Source of the DNA: Arthrobacter hankyongi
GTDB lineage: Bacteria > Actinomycetota > Actinomycetes > Actinomycetales > Micrococcaceae
Assembly: GCF_022012395.1 (NCBI RefSeq)
Contig: NZ_JAKLTQ010000004.1
Coordinates: 62,001 to 126,000, forward strand
Direction of reading: 5' to 3'
DNA length: 64,000 nt
The position numbers were made by a program, and so were the translations under genes. The notes under the pieces were generated by a model. The model was not told where the DNA came from. It was given only the letters and a program-made list of their open reading frames with translations, and did not search any database. Shown piece by piece: positions 27,574 to 34,472 of this stretch; position 1 is the stretch's first letter, and each line of letters starts with the position of its first letter.

Positions 27574-27674
27574 CCGGCCCGATCGTCGATGCCCTATTCC
27601 GTCAGGAATGGGGCATCCGTGTTTTAATCGGCCGCGGGTTTCCGCCGTGAACCCACGTTTCCACGCACTTGGAC

Positions 27675-27693
27675 TTAGGTAAGGCTAATCTAC
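27675..27693. promoter_or_regulatory. DtxR/IdeR-type iron box
   Basis: TTAGGTAAGGCTAATCTAC matches the 19-bp IdeR/DtxR consensus TTAGGTTAGGCTAACCTAA at 16 of 19 positions. It overlaps the likely -10 (TACTAA, 27691-27696) of the fusion gene that starts at 27703, so iron-loaded repressor would block it. Confidence 0.8.
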
Positions 27694-27702
27694 TAACCTG
27701 CG

Positions 27703-30231
27703 GTGGTGACCATTCAGCTTCTCCCCGCCCGGGTGCCGTTCGCCGACGAGCTGGCCCGTTACGCAGACCGTCCGGCCGTCTTTGCCGGGGACCTGGTCCT
27801 CAGCTACCGGGAATTGGCCGACCGGGTTGGTGCCGTGGCGGCCCGGCTGGGCCCGCTGCGGCGCCTGGTGGCGCTGGCCGCGGCCAATGATCTGGACTCG
27901 CTCGTGGCCTACCTGGCGGCGCTGTCCGCCGGCCACCCGCTGCTGCTTGTCCCGGCGGACAAGCCGGCGGCCCTGCAGTCGCTCGTCGCGGCCTATGATC
28001 CCGACGTCGTCATGCGGCCGGGGGACGGGGAGCCGGTGCTGGAGAAACGGCGGCCCGGCAGCCGCCACGAGCTGCACCCCGAGCTTGCCCTGCTGCTCAG
28101 TACGTCCGGCTCCACCGGCACCCCCAAGCTCGTGCGGCTCTCGCACGAGAACCTGCAGGCCAATGCCGAAGCCATTGCCGAGTATTTGTCCATCGGCACC
28201 GGCGACCGGGCCGCGACCACGCTGCCGATGCATTACTGCTACGGCTTGTCGGTGATCAACAGCCATCTGCTGCGTGGTGCGGGCCTTGTGCTCACGGACC
28301 TGTCCGTCGTCGACCCGTGTTTCTGGGAGCTGTTCCGGAGCCGCCGGGCGACGTCGTTCGCGGCCGTGCCGTACACCTTCGAACTGCTCGAACGGGTGGG
28401 GTTCCCGGGCATGGACCTGCCCAGCCTGCGCTACCTGACCCAGGCCGGCGGCCGGCTCGATCCCGACACCGTGGTCCGGTATGCCGGGCTCGGCCGCCGG
28501 CGCGGCTGGGACCTGTTCGTCATGTATGGCCAGACGGAGGCCACCGCCCGGATGGCCTACCTGCCGCCTGACCTGGCAGCCGGCAACCCGGGAATGATCG
28601 GGGTGCCGGTGCCGGGCGGCGCCTTCCGCATCGACCCGGTACCCGGCCTGGCGGACGGGGAACTGGTCTACACGGGTCCGAACGTCATGCTCGGCTATGC
28701 CGGGAACCCGGCGGACCTCGCTGCCGGCCGCACCATCGAGGAGCTGCGCACCGGCGACCTCGCCCGGCAGCACCCGTCCGGACTGTACGAGGTGGTCGGC
28801 CGGCGCAGCCGTTTCGTCAAGATCGTGGGCCTGCGCATCGACCTCGGCCAAGTCGAACGGATCCTCGCCGCGCTTGGCGTGCCGGCGGCCGCCGCAGGCT
28901 CGGACCACCGGCTCGTGATCGCCGTCGAGGGCGGTCACGAGCCGGGCCTGCTGGCCAAGACCCTGGCCCGGGAGATCGGGCTGCCGCGGACAGCCATCGG
29001 GGTGCACGCCGTCGAACGCCTTCCCCGGCTGCCCACCGGCAAGCTGGACTACGCCGCGGTCCTCGCCCTCGACGCGCCGGAACCTGCCGAACCCCGCAGC
29101 GGCCCGGCCGACGGGCCGGATGATGTCCGCACGATCCTCGCCGAGACGCTGGAGCGAAGCGATGTCGGCGAGGACGACACGTTCGTTTCGCTCGGTGGGG
29201 ACTCGCTGTCCTACGTGGCAGCCTCGCTGCGGCTGGAGCGCGCGCTGGGGAGCCTGCCGCCGGACTGGCACCTTAGAACCGTCCGCGAGCTGGCACCGCG
29301 CCCGCAGCAGCGCCGGCGCATGCGAAGGTTCTTCGCTCCGCTGGAGGCCGGCATCGTGCTGCGGGCCGTGGCGATCGTCTTCATCATCGGCACGCACGCC
29401 CACCTGTTCCACTGGCCCGGCATGGCCCACGTCCTGATGGCGGTGGCCGGATACAATTTCGCACGCTTCCAGCTCAACGGCGGCCGGCTGTCGCGCCTGC
29501 GCCGCCAGCTGCGCAGCCTGGGCAGGATCGTGGTGCCCAGCCTGGCGTTCATCGCGTTCGCCTACCTGGCCACCGACAGGTACAGCCCCGCCAACCTCGT
29601 GCTGCTGAACTCCTTCCTCGGGCCGGAGACCTGGACCACGCAGTGGGACTTCTGGTTCATTGAGATGCTGGTCTACGTGCTCGGCGCCATGGCGGTCCTG
29701 CTCGCGGTGCCGTGGGCGGACCGCGCCGAGCGGCGCTTCCCGCTCGCCTTCCCGCTGGCGCTGACCGCCGCAGGACTGCTGACCCGCTTCGGGATCGTGG
29801 AACTCTCCGTGCCGAAGCCGGCGCCGGTGCTGTGGCTCTTCGCCCTGGGCTGGGCCATTGCCCGGGCCCGTACCCTGCCCCAGCGTGCTGCCGTTTCCGC
29901 CATCGCCGCGCTGGCCGTCCCGGGCTTCTTCGGCGATCCGGCCCGCGACGCCACCATCCTGGCCGGCATCCTGGTGCTCGCCTGGCTGCCCGCGGTCCCG
30001 GTGCCGGCCGGCCTGCACCGGCTGCTGGCGCTGCTGGCCAGCTCGTCGCTGTATGCCTACCTGACACACTGGCTGGTCTACCCCGGCCTGGCGCCGATCA
30101 GCCCGGCCCTTGCCGTGGCCGCCTCGCTGGCCGCCGGCGCGGCATACTGGGCGCTGTGCCTGTGGCTAACTAATACTGTCCGACGGCGGCGGACCGCCGG
30201 GGCGGGAACCGGCCCGAAGGGCCGGGGGTAG
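27703..30231 (+). CDS. Adenylation - carrier - acyltransferase-3 fusion (NRPS-like), iron-regulated
   Basis: An 842-residue protein with three parts. Residues 1-450 are an AMP-forming adenylation domain (STSGSTGTPK near 131, YGQTEATAR near 285, RTGDLA near 349, VVGRRSRFVKIVGLRIDLGQ near 365, and LPTGKLDY near 445). Residues 465-535 are a carrier domain with LGGDSLSY, Ser501 being the phosphopantetheine site. Residues 550-830 are a membrane acyltransferase-3 domain of about ten helices. There is no condensation or thioesterase domain. The GTG start lacks a ribosome site and lies 6 bp after TACTAA, so a leaderless mRNA is likely. It probably loads an acid on its own carrier and transfers it at the membrane to a hydroxyl or amine, perhaps for a siderophore or cell-surface product. 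Substrate unknown. Confidence 0.85.
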   Translation: MVTIQLLPARVPFADELARYADRPAVFAGDLVLSYRELADRVGAVAARLGPLRRLVALAAANDLDSLVAYLAALSAGHPLLLVPADKPAALQSLVAAYDPDVVMRPGDGEPVLEKRRPGSRHELHPELALLLSTSGSTGTPKLVRLSHENLQANAEAIAEYLSIGTGDRAATTLPMHYCYGLSVINSHLLRGAGLVLTDLSVVDPCFWELFRSRRATSFAAVPYTFELLERVGFPGMDLPSLRYLTQAGGRLDPDTVVRYAGLGRRRGWDLFVMYGQTEATARMAYLPPDLAAGNPGMIGVPVPGGAFRIDPVPGLADGELVYTGPNVMLGYAGNPADLAAGRTIEELRTGDLARQHPSGLYEVVGRRSRFVKIVGLRIDLGQVERILAALGVPAAAAGSDHRLVIAVEGGHEPGLLAKTLAREIGLPRTAIGVHAVERLPRLPTGKLDYAAVLALDAPEPAEPRSGPADGPDDVRTILAETLERSDVGEDDTFVSLGGDSLSYVAASLRLERALGSLPPDWHLRTVRELAPRPQQRRRMRRFFAPLEAGIVLRAVAIVFIIGTHAHLFHWPGMAHVLMAVAGYNFARFQLNGGRLSRLRRQLRSLGRIVVPSLAFIAFAYLATDRYSPANLVLLNSFLGPETWTTQWDFWFIEMLVYVLGAMAVLLAVPWADRAERRFPLAFPLALTAAGLLTRFGIVELSVPKPAPVLWLFALGWAIARARTLPQRAAVSAIAALAVPGFFGDPARDATILAGILVLAWLPAVPVPAGLHRLLALLASSSLYAYLTHWLVYPGLAPISPALAVAASLAAGAAYWALCLWLTNTVRRRRTAGAGTGPKGRG

Positions 30232-30267: not shown

Positions 30268-30861
30268 TCACTCCTCGGTGAGCAGGTGGCACCAGGCGTC
30301 GGTGAGCGTTTCGAGGCAGGTTTCGCGGTCCATGACTCCCCAGCCCAGCCGGAACCAGCGCCGGGACAGGAACTCGAACTGGCCGAAGGCCAGCACGCAG
30401 CGGATGTGGCGGGTGGCCGGCTCGAAGCGCCCCGCCCGGTCCAGGCCTTCCTGCATCGAGGTCGCCACGTCCTCGAACCAGGATTCGATCTTGTCGGCGA
30501 CCTCGGGTTCCCCGGCGGCCGCCTGGTGGGCGGCCAGGATGTAGGGGCGGATGACGGCCCACTGGTCGAATTTCTTGTTCAGCCAGGCCCGGACCAGGTT
30601 CCGTCGGCCCAGTTCGACGACGGTGGACAGCGGCGGATCGTCCACGGTGGTGAGGATCTTGTCCACCGTGGTGATCAGTTCGGACATCAGCTCCGCCTTG
30701 GACGAGAAGTGCAGGTAGAACGTCGTCCGCGTCGTCCCGGCCGCACCTGCGATGTCGTCAATGGTGGTGGCCGCGTAGCCCTTGGATTCGAAGAGCTCCA
30801 GCCCCTTCTCCAACAGCAGCTGCCGGGTCAGCTGCTTCTGTGCTTCGCGTAGTGATGCCAT
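30268..30861 (-). CDS. TetR-family regulator of the adjacent DHA2 exporter
   Basis: A 197-residue TetR regulator. The DNA-binding domain is canonical (GLELFESKGYAATTIDDIAG, AAGTTRTTFYLHFSSKAELM). The C-terminal domain is rich in Trp and Phe, fitting a drug-binding pocket. It is transcribed away from an MFS exporter gene (31040), the classical arrangement in which the regulator represses both from the shared region (30862-31039). Confidence 0.9.
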   Translation of the reverse strand: MASLREAQKQLTRQLLLEKGLELFESKGYAATTIDDIAGAAGTTRTTFYLHFSSKAELMSELITTVDKILTTVDDPPLSTVVELGRRNLVRAWLNKKFDQWAVIRPYILAAHQAAAGEPEVADKIESWFEDVATSMQEGLDRAGRFEPATRHIRCVLAFGQFEFLSRRWFRLGWGVMDRETCLETLTDAWCHLLTEE

Positions 30862-31039: not shown

Positions 31040-32656
31040 ATGAGCCAGGACCACGGGACCCGGACGTCACAGCCGTCATTGCCGCCGCAGGCACCGCCGT
31101 CGTCGGGCCGTTCCGGCCGGACGGCCGGCACCCTGGCGGCGGCGTCGCTGGCGGTAATGATCGCGCAGGTTGCCAACGCGCTGCCCGGCGCGCTCAACGG
31201 CGAATATCAGCTGACCTTCAACACCTTCGGGTCCCAGCTGACCTGGATCACCGCGGCCTTTATGATTCCGGTGGTCGTCTTCGAACTCACCTTCGGCGTG
31301 CTCGGCGACAAGTTCGGCCACCGCAAGCTGGTGGTCGGCGGCGCCGCGCTGGTGGTCATCGGTTCGCTGGTCTGCACCATCTCGCCGACCGTCCAGGCCA
31401 TGTGGGTCGGCTCCGCGCTCAACGGACTCGGAGCCGGCGCCATCTACCCGGCGTCGCTGGCCCTGGTCGCCTCGGTGGCGCGCACCATGCAGGAACGGGT
31501 GCGCGGCATCGCCATCTGGGCCGGCTTCCTCTCCGCCGGCTCGGCCATCTCCCCGCTGCTGGGCGGCGTCTTTGCCGGTTTCGGCTGGTGGCGCGGCGCG
31601 TACGCCGTCGTTGCCGTCTTCAGCGTGGCTGCGCTGGTCCTGACGCTCTTCCGCGCGCAGGAAGCCAAGGTGGCCGAAGGCCGCCGGCTGGATCTCTGGG
31701 GCCAGATCACCTTGGCGCTGGGCCTGATCCTGGTGCTCTTCGGCCTGGTCCAGGGGCCCGAGGACGGCTGGGGGTCCACCCACGTCGTCGCGAGCCTCGC
31801 CGCCGGTGCCGCCCTGCTGGCCGTCTTTGTGGTGATCGAACTGCGGGTCCAGTCGCCGCTGCTGGACCTGAGGGTCTTCCGCAACCGCCAGTTCACCGTC
31901 GCCTCCATCGTCGCCGTCGTCGGCATGTTCGCCTTCCTGGGTGCCTGCTTCTCCACCAGCATGTGGCTCGGTCCGGTGCAGCACCAGAACCCGCTGTACC
32001 TCGGCCTGCTCTTCCTGCTGCTGCAGGGCCCGGCCTTCGTGCTGATTCCGGTGATCTCCCGGCTGCAGGCGCGGATCTCCTCGCGCTGGCTGCTGACCTT
32101 CGGGTTCCTGGCCATGGGCGCCGGTGCGCTGACCGCCTCGACGTTCGACGTCGCCAATCGGGACGTGGCCGTCTTTATCCTGCCGTCCCTGCTGGTCGGC
32201 CTGGGCTTCGCGCTGACGCTCAGCCCGATGACGGCGATTGCCGTGAATTCCGTGCCGCGCCAGCTGACCGGCATGGCCAGCGCCACCACCAACCTGCTGC
32301 GCGACCTCGGTTTCGCCCTCGGCCCGGTGCTTGTCGGTGCCATCGCGCTGAGCACCGCGGGCAGCCACCTGGTGCCGGCCCTGCAGTCCTCCGGGCTGCC
32401 GGCCGACCAGCTCGGTCCGGCCCTGGGCATCGCCGAGGCGGGCGGACCCATCGCGCTGAACAGCCTGCCGCCGGGCGTCCCCGGCGCCGAAGCCAGCCAG
32501 TTCGCGCTCGAGGCGCTCGGCAGCGGCTTTACCGAGGCCTTCCTCGTCGTCGCGGTGTCCGCATTGGCCGCGGCGCTGCTCAGCTGGTTTGGCCTGGGCG
32601 GCACCGGGCAGGCGGATCCGGAGCACGAGCCCGAGGCCGTCGAAGCCGGCCGGTAG
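31040..32656 (+). CDS. DHA2-type MFS drug exporter (EmrB/QacA-like)
   Basis: A 538-residue transporter with about 14 hydrophobic segments. Typical landmarks are GVLGDKFGHRKLVVGGAALV (loop 2-3 motif), GLGAGAIYPASLALVASV (helix 4) and SPLLGGVFAGFGWWRGAY (helix 5, antiporter-type). The start follows a strong AAGGAG. The divergent TetR gene suggests induction by a toxic substrate. It is convergent with a second DHA2 gene (32839-34338) across a long hairpin. Confidence 0.9.
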   Translation: MSQDHGTRTSQPSLPPQAPPSSGRSGRTAGTLAAASLAVMIAQVANALPGALNGEYQLTFNTFGSQLTWITAAFMIPVVVFELTFGVLGDKFGHRKLVVGGAALVVIGSLVCTISPTVQAMWVGSALNGLGAGAIYPASLALVASVARTMQERVRGIAIWAGFLSAGSAISPLLGGVFAGFGWWRGAYAVVAVFSVAALVLTLFRAQEAKVAEGRRLDLWGQITLALGLILVLFGLVQGPEDGWGSTHVVASLAAGAALLAVFVVIELRVQSPLLDLRVFRNRQFTVASIVAVVGMFAFLGACFSTSMWLGPVQHQNPLYLGLLFLLLQGPAFVLIPVISRLQARISSRWLLTFGFLAMGAGALTASTFDVANRDVAVFILPSLLVGLGFALTLSPMTAIAVNSVPRQLTGMASATTNLLRDLGFALGPVLVGAIALSTAGSHLVPALQSSGLPADQLGPALGIAEAGGPIALNSLPPGVPGAEASQFALEALGSGFTEAFLVVAVSALAAALLSWFGLGGTGQADPEHEPEAVEAGR

Positions 32657-32838: not shown

Positions 32839-34338
32839 TCAGCCGTTGGCGGTTTCCTTCGCGCGGTCCTTGGCCGGGACCTCCGTGTGCAGGCGGCGCA
32901 CGAACGGGGCGCAGGCGACGGCGGCGAGGCCGAGGATGCCGCCGACCGTGAAGGCGAGGCGGACGCCGTCGACCAGTGCGATGTTCCCGGCGATGCCGCT
33001 GGAGGCCGCGATGGAGGTGCCGATGGTCATGGCGGCAATCAGCACCGCGGTTCCGGCGGCGCCGGCCAGCTGCTGCAGGGTGTTCATGATCGCGCTGCCG
33101 TGGCCGTACTGCTCGCGCGGCAGGGCGCCCAGGGCGACGGTCATCAGCGGGGTCATCAGCATGGCCATGCCGATGCAGAACACGGTGTGGAAGGTAACGA
33201 TCAGGCCGACCGGGGTGTCGACGTGGACGCTGCCCAGCAGCCACTGGCCTCCGGCCAGCAGGACGGCGCCGGGAATCACGATCGGCCGCGGCCCGACCTT
33301 GTCGTAGATGCGGCCGACGAGCGGGGACACGATGCCCTGGACCAGGCCGCCCGGCAGCAGGGCCAGGCCGATGGCCAGGGTGGTCAGGCCCATGCCGTTC
33401 TGCATGAAGATCGGCATGACCATCACGGTGCCAAGCATGGTCGCCATCGCGATCATGACGATGACCACGGAGATGCGGAAGTTGTGCACCTTGAACGGGC
33501 GCAGGTCCAGCAGGTCGGATTCGGTCCGGCGCAGCGCGCGCTGGCGGCGGATGAACAGGCCCAGTGCGACGGCGCCGACCACCAGTGCGGCGACCGGGGC
33601 CCAGGCGCCTTCCAGCAGGCTGGCGATGGAGGAGAGCGCGTAGACGATGCCGCCGAAGGCGAAGGCCGACAGGATGACGGAGGGGATATCCAGCGGAGCC
33701 TTGCGCGTTTCCCTGCCGGTCTTGATGGCGAAGACGCCAAAAAGGAACACGATGGCGGCGGCCGGAAGCATCAGGCCGAAGACCCAGCGCCAGTCCAGCG
33801 AGTTGATGATGGCGCCGGAGAGGGTGGGGCCGATGGCCGGCGCCACGGAGATCACCACGGAGTTCAGCCCCATGACGGTGCCGCGGTGCCGGACCGGCAC
33901 GGAGGTCAGGGTGGTGGTCATCAGCAGCGGCAGGATGATCGCGGTGCCGCCGGCCTGGATGATGCGGGCGGCCAGCAGCACCGCGAAGGTCGGGGCGATC
34001 GCCGCCAGTGCGGTGCCGGCGATGAACAGCAGCAGGGCCCAGATGAACAGCGAGCGGGTGGTGAAGCGCTGCAGCATAAAGCCGGTGGTCGGGATGACCA
34101 CGGCCATGGTGAGCATAAAGCCGGTGGTCAGCCACTGTGCGGTGGTGGCTTCGATCCTGAGGTCGGCCATCAGGTTGGGCAGGGCGACCGTCAGCACGGT
34201 CTCGTTCAGGATCATGAGCAGCGCCGACAGCACCAGGGCGCTGATCACGGCGGCGACGCGTTTGACCGGGATCCGTTCCGGCTCCGCGGCCGCCTCCACC
34301 TGTCCGGGCGGAATTTTCTCCTCGAGGACGTTTGCCAT
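32839..34338 (-). CDS. DHA2-type MFS drug exporter, MarR-linked
   Basis: A 499-residue exporter with about 14 hydrophobic segments. The N-terminus has the family signature ILNETVLTVALPNLMADLRI (helix 1), then TTAQWLTTGFMLTMAVVIP. The helix 4 and helix 5 motifs RIIQAGGTAIILPLLMTT and APAIGPTLSGAII are present. The ATG at 34338 is preferred, as AAGAAGG precedes it; a GTG six bases upstream is possible. The marR gene lies upstream on the same strand and an inverted repeat at 34473-34490 separates them. Confidence 0.9.
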   Translation of the reverse strand: MANVLEEKIPPGQVEAAAEPERIPVKRVAAVISALVLSALLMILNETVLTVALPNLMADLRIEATTAQWLTTGFMLTMAVVIPTTGFMLQRFTTRSLFIWALLLFIAGTALAAIAPTFAVLLAARIIQAGGTAIILPLLMTTTLTSVPVRHRGTVMGLNSVVISVAPAIGPTLSGAIINSLDWRWVFGLMLPAAAIVFLFGVFAIKTGRETRKAPLDIPSVILSAFAFGGIVYALSSIASLLEGAWAPVAALVVGAVALGLFIRRQRALRRTESDLLDLRPFKVHNFRISVVIVMIAMATMLGTVMVMPIFMQNGMGLTTLAIGLALLPGGLVQGIVSPLVGRIYDKVGPRPIVIPGAVLLAGGQWLLGSVHVDTPVGLIVTFHTVFCIGMAMLMTPLMTVALGALPREQYGHGSAIMNTLQQLAGAAGTAVLIAAMTIGTSIAASSGIAGNIALVDGVRLAFTVGGILGLAAVACAPFVRRLHTEVPAKDRAKETANG

Positions 34339-34472
34339 GGGCACCTTCTTCTGTGGGGTTGCTGTGGGGCCGGGCCGCGGGCGTGCCCGGTCGGAAAAAC
34401 GGGAACCGGAGCCGGTCAGGCCGCCTGCCGCCGGGCAGCACGGAATCTGCGTGGATCTCCGGTTGAAATAAT

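Follow-up and report, generated by a model that had tools for sequence, protein, structure and literature searches.

What might a bacterium do with a single enzyme that joins the parts of an acylation pathway and stands behind what appears to be an iron-starvation switch? The gene in question lies at 27706..30231 on the forward strand of a stretch of 64,000 nucleotides from Arthrobacter hankyongi (contig NZ_JAKLTQ010000004.1, positions 62,001 to 126,000), which was analysed as a whole and is called the window below. It begins with GTG and encodes a predicted protein of 841 amino acids in which an adenylation domain, a carrier domain and a membrane acyltransferase domain of the acyltransferase-3 (AT3) type are fused. 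The original prediction, made from the letters of the window, had proposed iron control and an acylation carried out on one polypeptide. Judged by its motif, iron control of the gene is well supported, and so is, from the predicted domains, the one-polypeptide acylation pathway; neighbouring transporters in related genomes redirect the interpretation to iron acquisition linked to FbpABC, a ferric-iron transporter. Because the gene stands behind this predicted switch both here and in numerous related soil bacteria, and often adjoins genes for a ferric-iron importer, the enzyme probably makes an iron-capturing molecule that has gone unrecognised. We lean towards the view that it is a self-contained enzyme of ferric-iron acquisition, induced by iron starvation, and that its acylated product most likely serves as a ferric ligand used by the binding protein FbpA.

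The promoter of the gene carries an IdeR/DtxR-type iron box, TTAGGTAAGGCTAATCTAC (27675..27693, +), which equals TTAGGTTAGGCTAACCTAA, the sequence that we take to be the IdeR/DtxR consensus and used for scoring, at 16 of 19 positions. The original prediction was right on this match, and the box is one of only two sites with at most three mismatches to the consensus in the whole genome (5.19 Mb), a reversed control pattern giving none. That the second of these sites stands ahead of uptake genes (Peripla_BP_2 and FecCD) also speaks for iron-type control. It fills the spacer, at 19 bp longer than usual, between a possible -35 element (TTGGAC, 27669..27674, +; a tentative assignment) and the most likely -10 element (TAACCT, of the form TANNNT, 27694..27699, +). 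The box had been thought to overlap this -10; it abuts it. The start codon has also been revised: since close relatives start at the corresponding codon, we place it at the GTG at 27706, three bases beyond the alternative GTG at 27703, and the carrier serine is therefore numbered Ser500, not Ser501. The -10 element then ends 6 nt before the start codon, a geometry found in relatives as well.

Indeed, the box recurs in the family. The related loci analysed were the best 80 of 175, many of them close kin, and a box was sought within 250 nt upstream of the gene at a threshold of at least 14 of 19 positions. Such a box stands at the enzyme gene in 53 of the 80 loci (L053 being added by hand with its box); with L053 left out, it was found in 52 of 79 relatives versus 1 of 735 other genes of the same loci, a comparison set from which genes were dropped if they begin no more than 700 nt from the start of the enzyme gene or of fbpA, or have less than 200 nt upstream. 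Counting the fbpA promoter as well, 68 of the 80 loci have a box of this quality, and among the 12 others (L020, L024, L025, L027, L029, L041, L046, L056, L074, L075, L078 and L080) seven scored 12 or 13 at the gene and one 13 at fbpA. We further assembled 38 genes, the window's own and those of 37 loci, picked because a box scoring 12/19 or more begins 28-36 nt before the start codon. In all 38, a TANNNT ends 6 nt (21 genes) or 7 nt (17 genes) before the start, and a Shine-Dalgarno-like motif was found in none of them, the window gene included. By their sequence, these promoters show the geometry of leaderless transcripts, with the putative operator directly upstream of the -10; this gives comparative support to the earlier suggestion that the transcript is leaderless.

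A transporter of the FbpABC type beside the enzyme gene in 36 of the 80 loci, in three arrangements, is a new observation. Gene calls in these loci came from a simple script and include wrong-strand open reading frames (ORFs), as in cluster 4; FbpABC was therefore counted by tblastn. By this count FbpA lies beside the gene in 36 loci and FbpA or FbpB in 37 (among them L056, which is cut by its contig end), and six of the 80 show nothing but a distant ATPase match. FbpA is upstream on the same strand in 16 cases, downstream on the same strand in 3 and divergent in 17. In Arthrobacter, Pseudarthrobacter, Kocuria, two Nocardioidaceae and Mycolicibacterium the transporter genes come first (fbpABC-enzyme); on Rhodococcus plasmids and in Pseudofrankia, Spirilliplanes and one Nocardioidaceae contig they follow the enzyme gene (enzyme-fbpABC); Streptomyces, Micromonospora and Actinomadura have the divergent arrangement. 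The linkage thus spans eight families (Micrococcaceae, Streptomycetaceae, Micromonosporaceae, Nocardioidaceae, Frankiaceae, Thermomonosporaceae, Nocardiaceae and Mycobacteriaceae). As to the nature of the transporter, FbpA, FbpB and FbpC match solute-binding, permease and ATPase families in Pfam. For the FbpA of locus L034, 28 solved chains were found at E<=1e-10; the names of 27 mark them as iron-binding or iron-transport proteins, and the remaining one is called simply an extracellular solute-binding protein. The motif HYY, whose tyrosine pair provides iron ligands, is kept in 34 of 34 long FbpA matches, two short ones (L033, L072) not being judged. Moreover, public annotation places an 'iron ABC transporter' beside the enzyme gene in Rhodococcus opacus, R. 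gordoniae, R. fascians and Mycolicibacterium chubuense. The original prediction had noted that no siderophore gene is near; this agrees with the ORFs of the window read by eye between 20000 and 38000, and the part that changes is the wider picture, since an FbpABC-type transporter adjoins the gene in these 36 related loci, which is why we place the enzyme in ferric-iron uptake.

The two genes also travel together. In 295 genomes of the window's family, searched for enzyme and FbpA both at E<=1e-60, the enzyme was found in 49 and the linked-type FbpA in 19. The enzyme was present in 19 of 19 FbpA-positive versus 30 of 276 FbpA-negative genomes (Fisher 5e-17, a p value that overstates independence, many loci being close kin), and in 18 of the 19 they share a strand, at a distance of about 2.9 kb from each other; in the nineteenth (G105), FbpA is on another contig and the enzyme is in two overlapping frames. 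This co-occurrence runs one way, as this FbpA is never found without the enzyme and the reverse is common, a pattern to be expected if the enzyme supplies something that the transporter requires. On a tree of 88 rows the linkage label changes 7 times versus 29 in shuffles, with 5 changes forced by well-supported branches; the label is thus clustered yet changed several times, near-copies inflating the contrast and the tree leaving the direction unfixed. Our own reading is that the linkage may be old and was lost in the stand-alone Arthrobacter clade that contains the window. In a draw of 296 genomes across the phylum the gene occurs in 14, two of these in the window's family, so that it is uncommon (about 5%). 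The enzyme forms a widespread family, not a peculiarity of one strain, and its association with FbpABC is recurrent, not universal.

Homologues with 35-42% identity are carried on Rhizobiaceae and Leisingera plasmids, and these point to iron by another route. Among the 11 proteobacterial loci analysed (plasmid records only, 11 of 105 matching records), 8 homologues have TGA-N9-TCA within 100 nt upstream, versus 2 of 78 neighbouring genes, a control that excludes the divergent gene sharing its site with the homologue in L146 (3 of 79 with that gene counted). L146, one of the 8, bears the label Roseateles (a betaproteobacterium), and its record carries the mark UNVERIFIED_ORG; outside the 8 are L115, where the motif lies at -121, L144, whose spacer is short by one base, and L148, which has none. 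In three records that come with no gene tables (L143, L144 and L147), the start of the match was taken as the gene start. The motif is described as the IRO box of the iron regulator RirA in two papers (PMC6386902, PMC8822346). Since the motifs of two unrelated iron regulators stand at one enzyme family, its function would belong to iron limitation. Distant ATPase matches occur in three of the 11 loci. The two Leisingera loci, L115 and L148, which have no close TGA-N9-TCA, share the upstream sequence TTGACAAAATTAGTAAATTA, perhaps the site of another regulator.

The domains of the enzyme are those of an activating and acyl-carrying machine. The adenylation domain (PF00501, E 1.5e-42) covers residues 13-331 (27742..28698, +) and is followed by its C-terminal part with Lys446 in a PTGK motif (29041..29043, +), which from A-domain enzymology we take to be the A10-type lysine and which is invariant in 31 members of the family. 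The carrier domain (PF00550, E 8.5e-08) covers residues 473-530 (29122..29295, +), with the invariant Ser500, the predicted phosphopantetheine attachment site (29203..29205, +), in a GGDSLS motif. As in a siderophore synthetase of the non-ribosomal peptide synthetase (NRPS) type, adenylation and carrier domains occur together (PF00501 in 31 of 31 members, PF00550 in 30 of 31); in four alphaproteobacterial proteins PF00550 is slightly below its cut-off (two) or absent (two), GGDSL being kept nonetheless. No condensation or thioesterase family is among the Pfam matches of the window protein up to E 1, and Pfam gave no condensation or release domain in the 31 members either, so that the fusion is as originally described apart from the serine's number. 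In NCBIfam the adenylation part is closest to TIGR01733 (138.4 bits), followed by TIGR03098, the exosortase-associated acyl ligase, at 137.1 bits, far below the curated cut-off of 592. In amino-acid-activating domains an Asp of the A4 region binds the alpha-amino group, and this Asp is missing also in aryl-acid ligases. Here Cys178 aligns with the A4 Asp of LgrA domain 1, and the position is Cys in 31 of 31 members and Ser in the four alphaproteobacterial ones; because of this replacement, the substrate is probably a carboxylic acid other than an ordinary alpha-amino acid. The remaining pocket positions considered, which were assigned by hand after GrsA, are largely alike between Actinomycetota and the four alphaproteobacterial members, and perhaps one and the same substrate is used in both phyla. 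As no characterised close relative was found, a substrate prediction from pocket residues was dropped.

The membrane part is assigned to the AT3 type (PF01757, residues 551-813, 29356..30144, +) from Pfam matches in the members and from the helices of a structure model. The window protein scores 29.4 bits (E 5.5e-07), slightly below the Pfam cut-off of 31, and 27 of the 31 members match PF01757 at E<=0.001. When ten relatives were scored one by one, three reached 43-46 bits (at most 45.8) and six 20-30, and L116 had no match. The motif R-X10-H, a hallmark of AT3 proteins, is present in 31 of 31 members (R553 to H564 in the window protein, 29362..29397, +), its Arg and His columns being invariant. 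The model has ten helices of at least 14 residues (pLDDT per block 69-96), and a simple hydropathy scan of this part separates only about seven stretches. A profile comparison with E. coli OpgC is weak and limited to a C-terminal stretch (hhalign probability 8.5, E 0.0039; 0.2 and 0.37 for a control, a transporter-like protein of the window), and whole-model structure comparison returned the adenylation part only among the 50 matches listed. The AT3 part gave no match in a PDB profile search and none in NCBIfam. Of the membrane acyltransferases in Pfam, PF01757 is the sole match in the window protein and the 31 members, and the MBOAT family, to which the acyltransferase of the Dlt system belongs, was not found there.

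These elements suggest a mechanism. When iron is plentiful, an IdeR/DtxR-type repressor bound to the box beside the -10 would block the leaderless transcript, as motif and geometry imply. When iron is scarce, the adenylation domain would activate a carboxylic acid and load it onto the phosphopantetheine arm of Ser500, and the arm might hand the acyl group to the AT3 domain for transfer to an acceptor at or beyond the membrane. Two publications describe AT3 domains as having a pore for acyl-CoA and as acylating acceptors outside the cytoplasm, and they name fusions with SGNH, racemase and NRF domains, the donors being acyl-CoA (PMC9558356, PMC12423673); one of them argued against a donor of the tethered-carrier type (PMC9558356). 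In the enzyme studied here the fused carrier would replace acyl-CoA, and since the chemistry of the phosphopantetheine arm is that of the pantetheine of CoA, it could feed the AT3 pore directly. The product would most likely be a ferric ligand, released or retained in the envelope, from which FbpA would take Fe3+ for import. That the whole forms a one-enzyme pathway, passing a carrier-tethered acyl group through the AT3 pore to an outside acceptor and so making a minimal ferric ligand needed by a dedicated FbpABC, is a possibility that we put forward tentatively.

Several points weigh against this proposal. FbpA and FbpB are absent from the stretch analysed in 43 of the 80 loci (mostly 6 kb on each side) and gave no match in any of the 11 proteobacterial loci (flanks of 9 kb in four and 3 kb in seven). 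Around the gene in the 12 genomes of the phylum-wide draw that lie outside the family, a sample of 12 regions taken irrespective of what adjoins the gene, matches to FbpA, FbpB and FbpC occur in 4 regions; a box scoring 14 or more, at the gene or at fbpA, is present in 7 of the 11 that could be judged (one region begins inside the gene). The own genome's FbpA does not adjoin the enzyme: it lies on another contig (C67, 21909-22793; L113), is 52% identical to a linked FbpA, is followed by an FbpB-like frame and has only the weak 12/19 site GGTAAGGCATACCTA about 50 nt upstream. To these are added the kinship behind the p values and the nature of the enzyme, no predicted domain of which indicates iron-chelating chemistry. 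For AT3 proteins that have been characterised, the donor is acyl-CoA and the usual targets are sugars of the cell surface (PMC9558356). A RirA ChIP-seq study of Sinorhizobium fredii, with 10 peaks of which only 5 hold the motif, does not name the enzyme gene in the portion available, the presence of the gene in that strain being unchecked (PMC8822346).

Some of these points also suit another explanation, in which the enzyme acylates a glycan, lipid or polymer of the envelope in response to iron, by a Dlt-like logic and with its AT3 domain, and no ligand is released; the acylation would alter charge or permeability, or gather Fe3+ at the surface. The acylation of extracytoplasmic sugars by most AT3 proteins covered in the review (PMC9558356) speaks for it, as do the 43 loci without an adjoining transporter and the 11 of 11 proteobacterial ones among which neither FbpA nor FbpB is found. 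We nevertheless consider it rather unlikely, since the linked-type FbpA never occurs without the enzyme in the 295 genomes, which a pair of ligand and transporter explains more easily; a surface-bound ligand would satisfy both accounts. It is improbable that the enzyme instead tailors an already established siderophore, or another iron metabolite, whose synthesis is encoded in a different part of the genome. Iron-type control would fit such a role, and so would an iron-boxed uptake locus in the same genome: the other near-consensus box (contig C23, near 229996-230014; L112) precedes a Peripla_BP_2 gene and then a FecCD permease frame, families of siderophore, haem and B12 uptake. Against it, the genome has no IucA/IucC synthetase of siderophore synthesis independent of NRPS, the one siderophore route that was searched for, FbpABC is the partner that recurs, and the pocket positions examined are largely alike between the two phyla. 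A metabolite for iron sparing or stress, regulated by iron and with no part in uptake, seems a shade more improbable again: stand-alone copies without a transporter exist and AT3 proteins are able to act on small molecules too, macrolides for example (PMC9558356), whereas the FbpABC linkage recurs in three gene arrangements. That the box matches the consensus by chance, with the gene outside iron control, is very hard to believe, given 52 of 79 relatives versus 1 of 735 other genes, only two near-consensus sites in the genome and the conserved leaderless geometry.

The enzyme can be set beside several known systems. It resembles the AT3 superfamily (PF01757; TmAT) in the Pfam matches of most members, its R-X10-H motif and the ten helices of at least 14 residues in the structure model, and differs in carrying its own adenylation and carrier domains, the donors of the reviewed AT3 proteins being acyl-CoA. 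The Dlt system consists of the ligase DltA, the carrier DltC and the MBOAT protein DltB. The enzyme shares this logic of ligase, carrier and membrane acyltransferase, whereas it is one polypeptide, of AT3 and not MBOAT type, without the Asp that binds the amino group and under iron-type control. With NRPS and aryl-acid siderophore synthetases (EntE/DhbE-type ligases with a carrier) it has in common the adenylation fold, the carrier and iron-type control; it differs in having no condensation or thioesterase match, the AT3 domain being the apparent releasing step. Its recurrent neighbour is like known FbpABC ferric-iron ABC transporters in that FbpA matches solved ferric-binding proteins and keeps HYY. 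Importers of this type are generally assumed to work on naked ferric iron, and we know of no FbpABC system paired with a dedicated biosynthetic enzyme. Our literature search found no description of the fusion or of its pairing with FbpABC; an earlier mention of the rhizobial gene in older iron-regulon papers is possible. A dedicated acyl-transfer enzyme that seems to be regulated and inherited together with FbpABC suggests that certain of these importers rely on an overlooked small ligand, and the predicted fusion that an AT3 pore can draw its acyl group from a tethered carrier. If the one-enzyme pathway is true, it would represent a new class of iron acquisition, and some 'siderophore-independent' FbpABC systems of Actinomycetota would depend on a ligand, as would, with another importer, iron uptake in Rhizobiaceae.

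The surroundings of the gene vary. In the window it is followed by a TetR-type regulator (30268-30861, -) and a transporter of the MFS type (31040-32656, +), both recognised by Pfam, and by a second, convergent transporter gene (32839-34344, -), MFS-type by eye. On plasmids of M. chubuense and R. fascians (L117, L150) the enzyme gene lies near genes of the metal-resistance type (P-type ATPase, cadmium transporter, ArsR regulators), and on a P. defluvii plasmid (L120) genes for a cation transporter and an ArsR regulator are close to it. Arthrobacter liuii (L026, L030) and genome G163 (contigs C20 and C27) each have the enzyme gene twice, and in G163 an FbpA match stands beside only one of the two.

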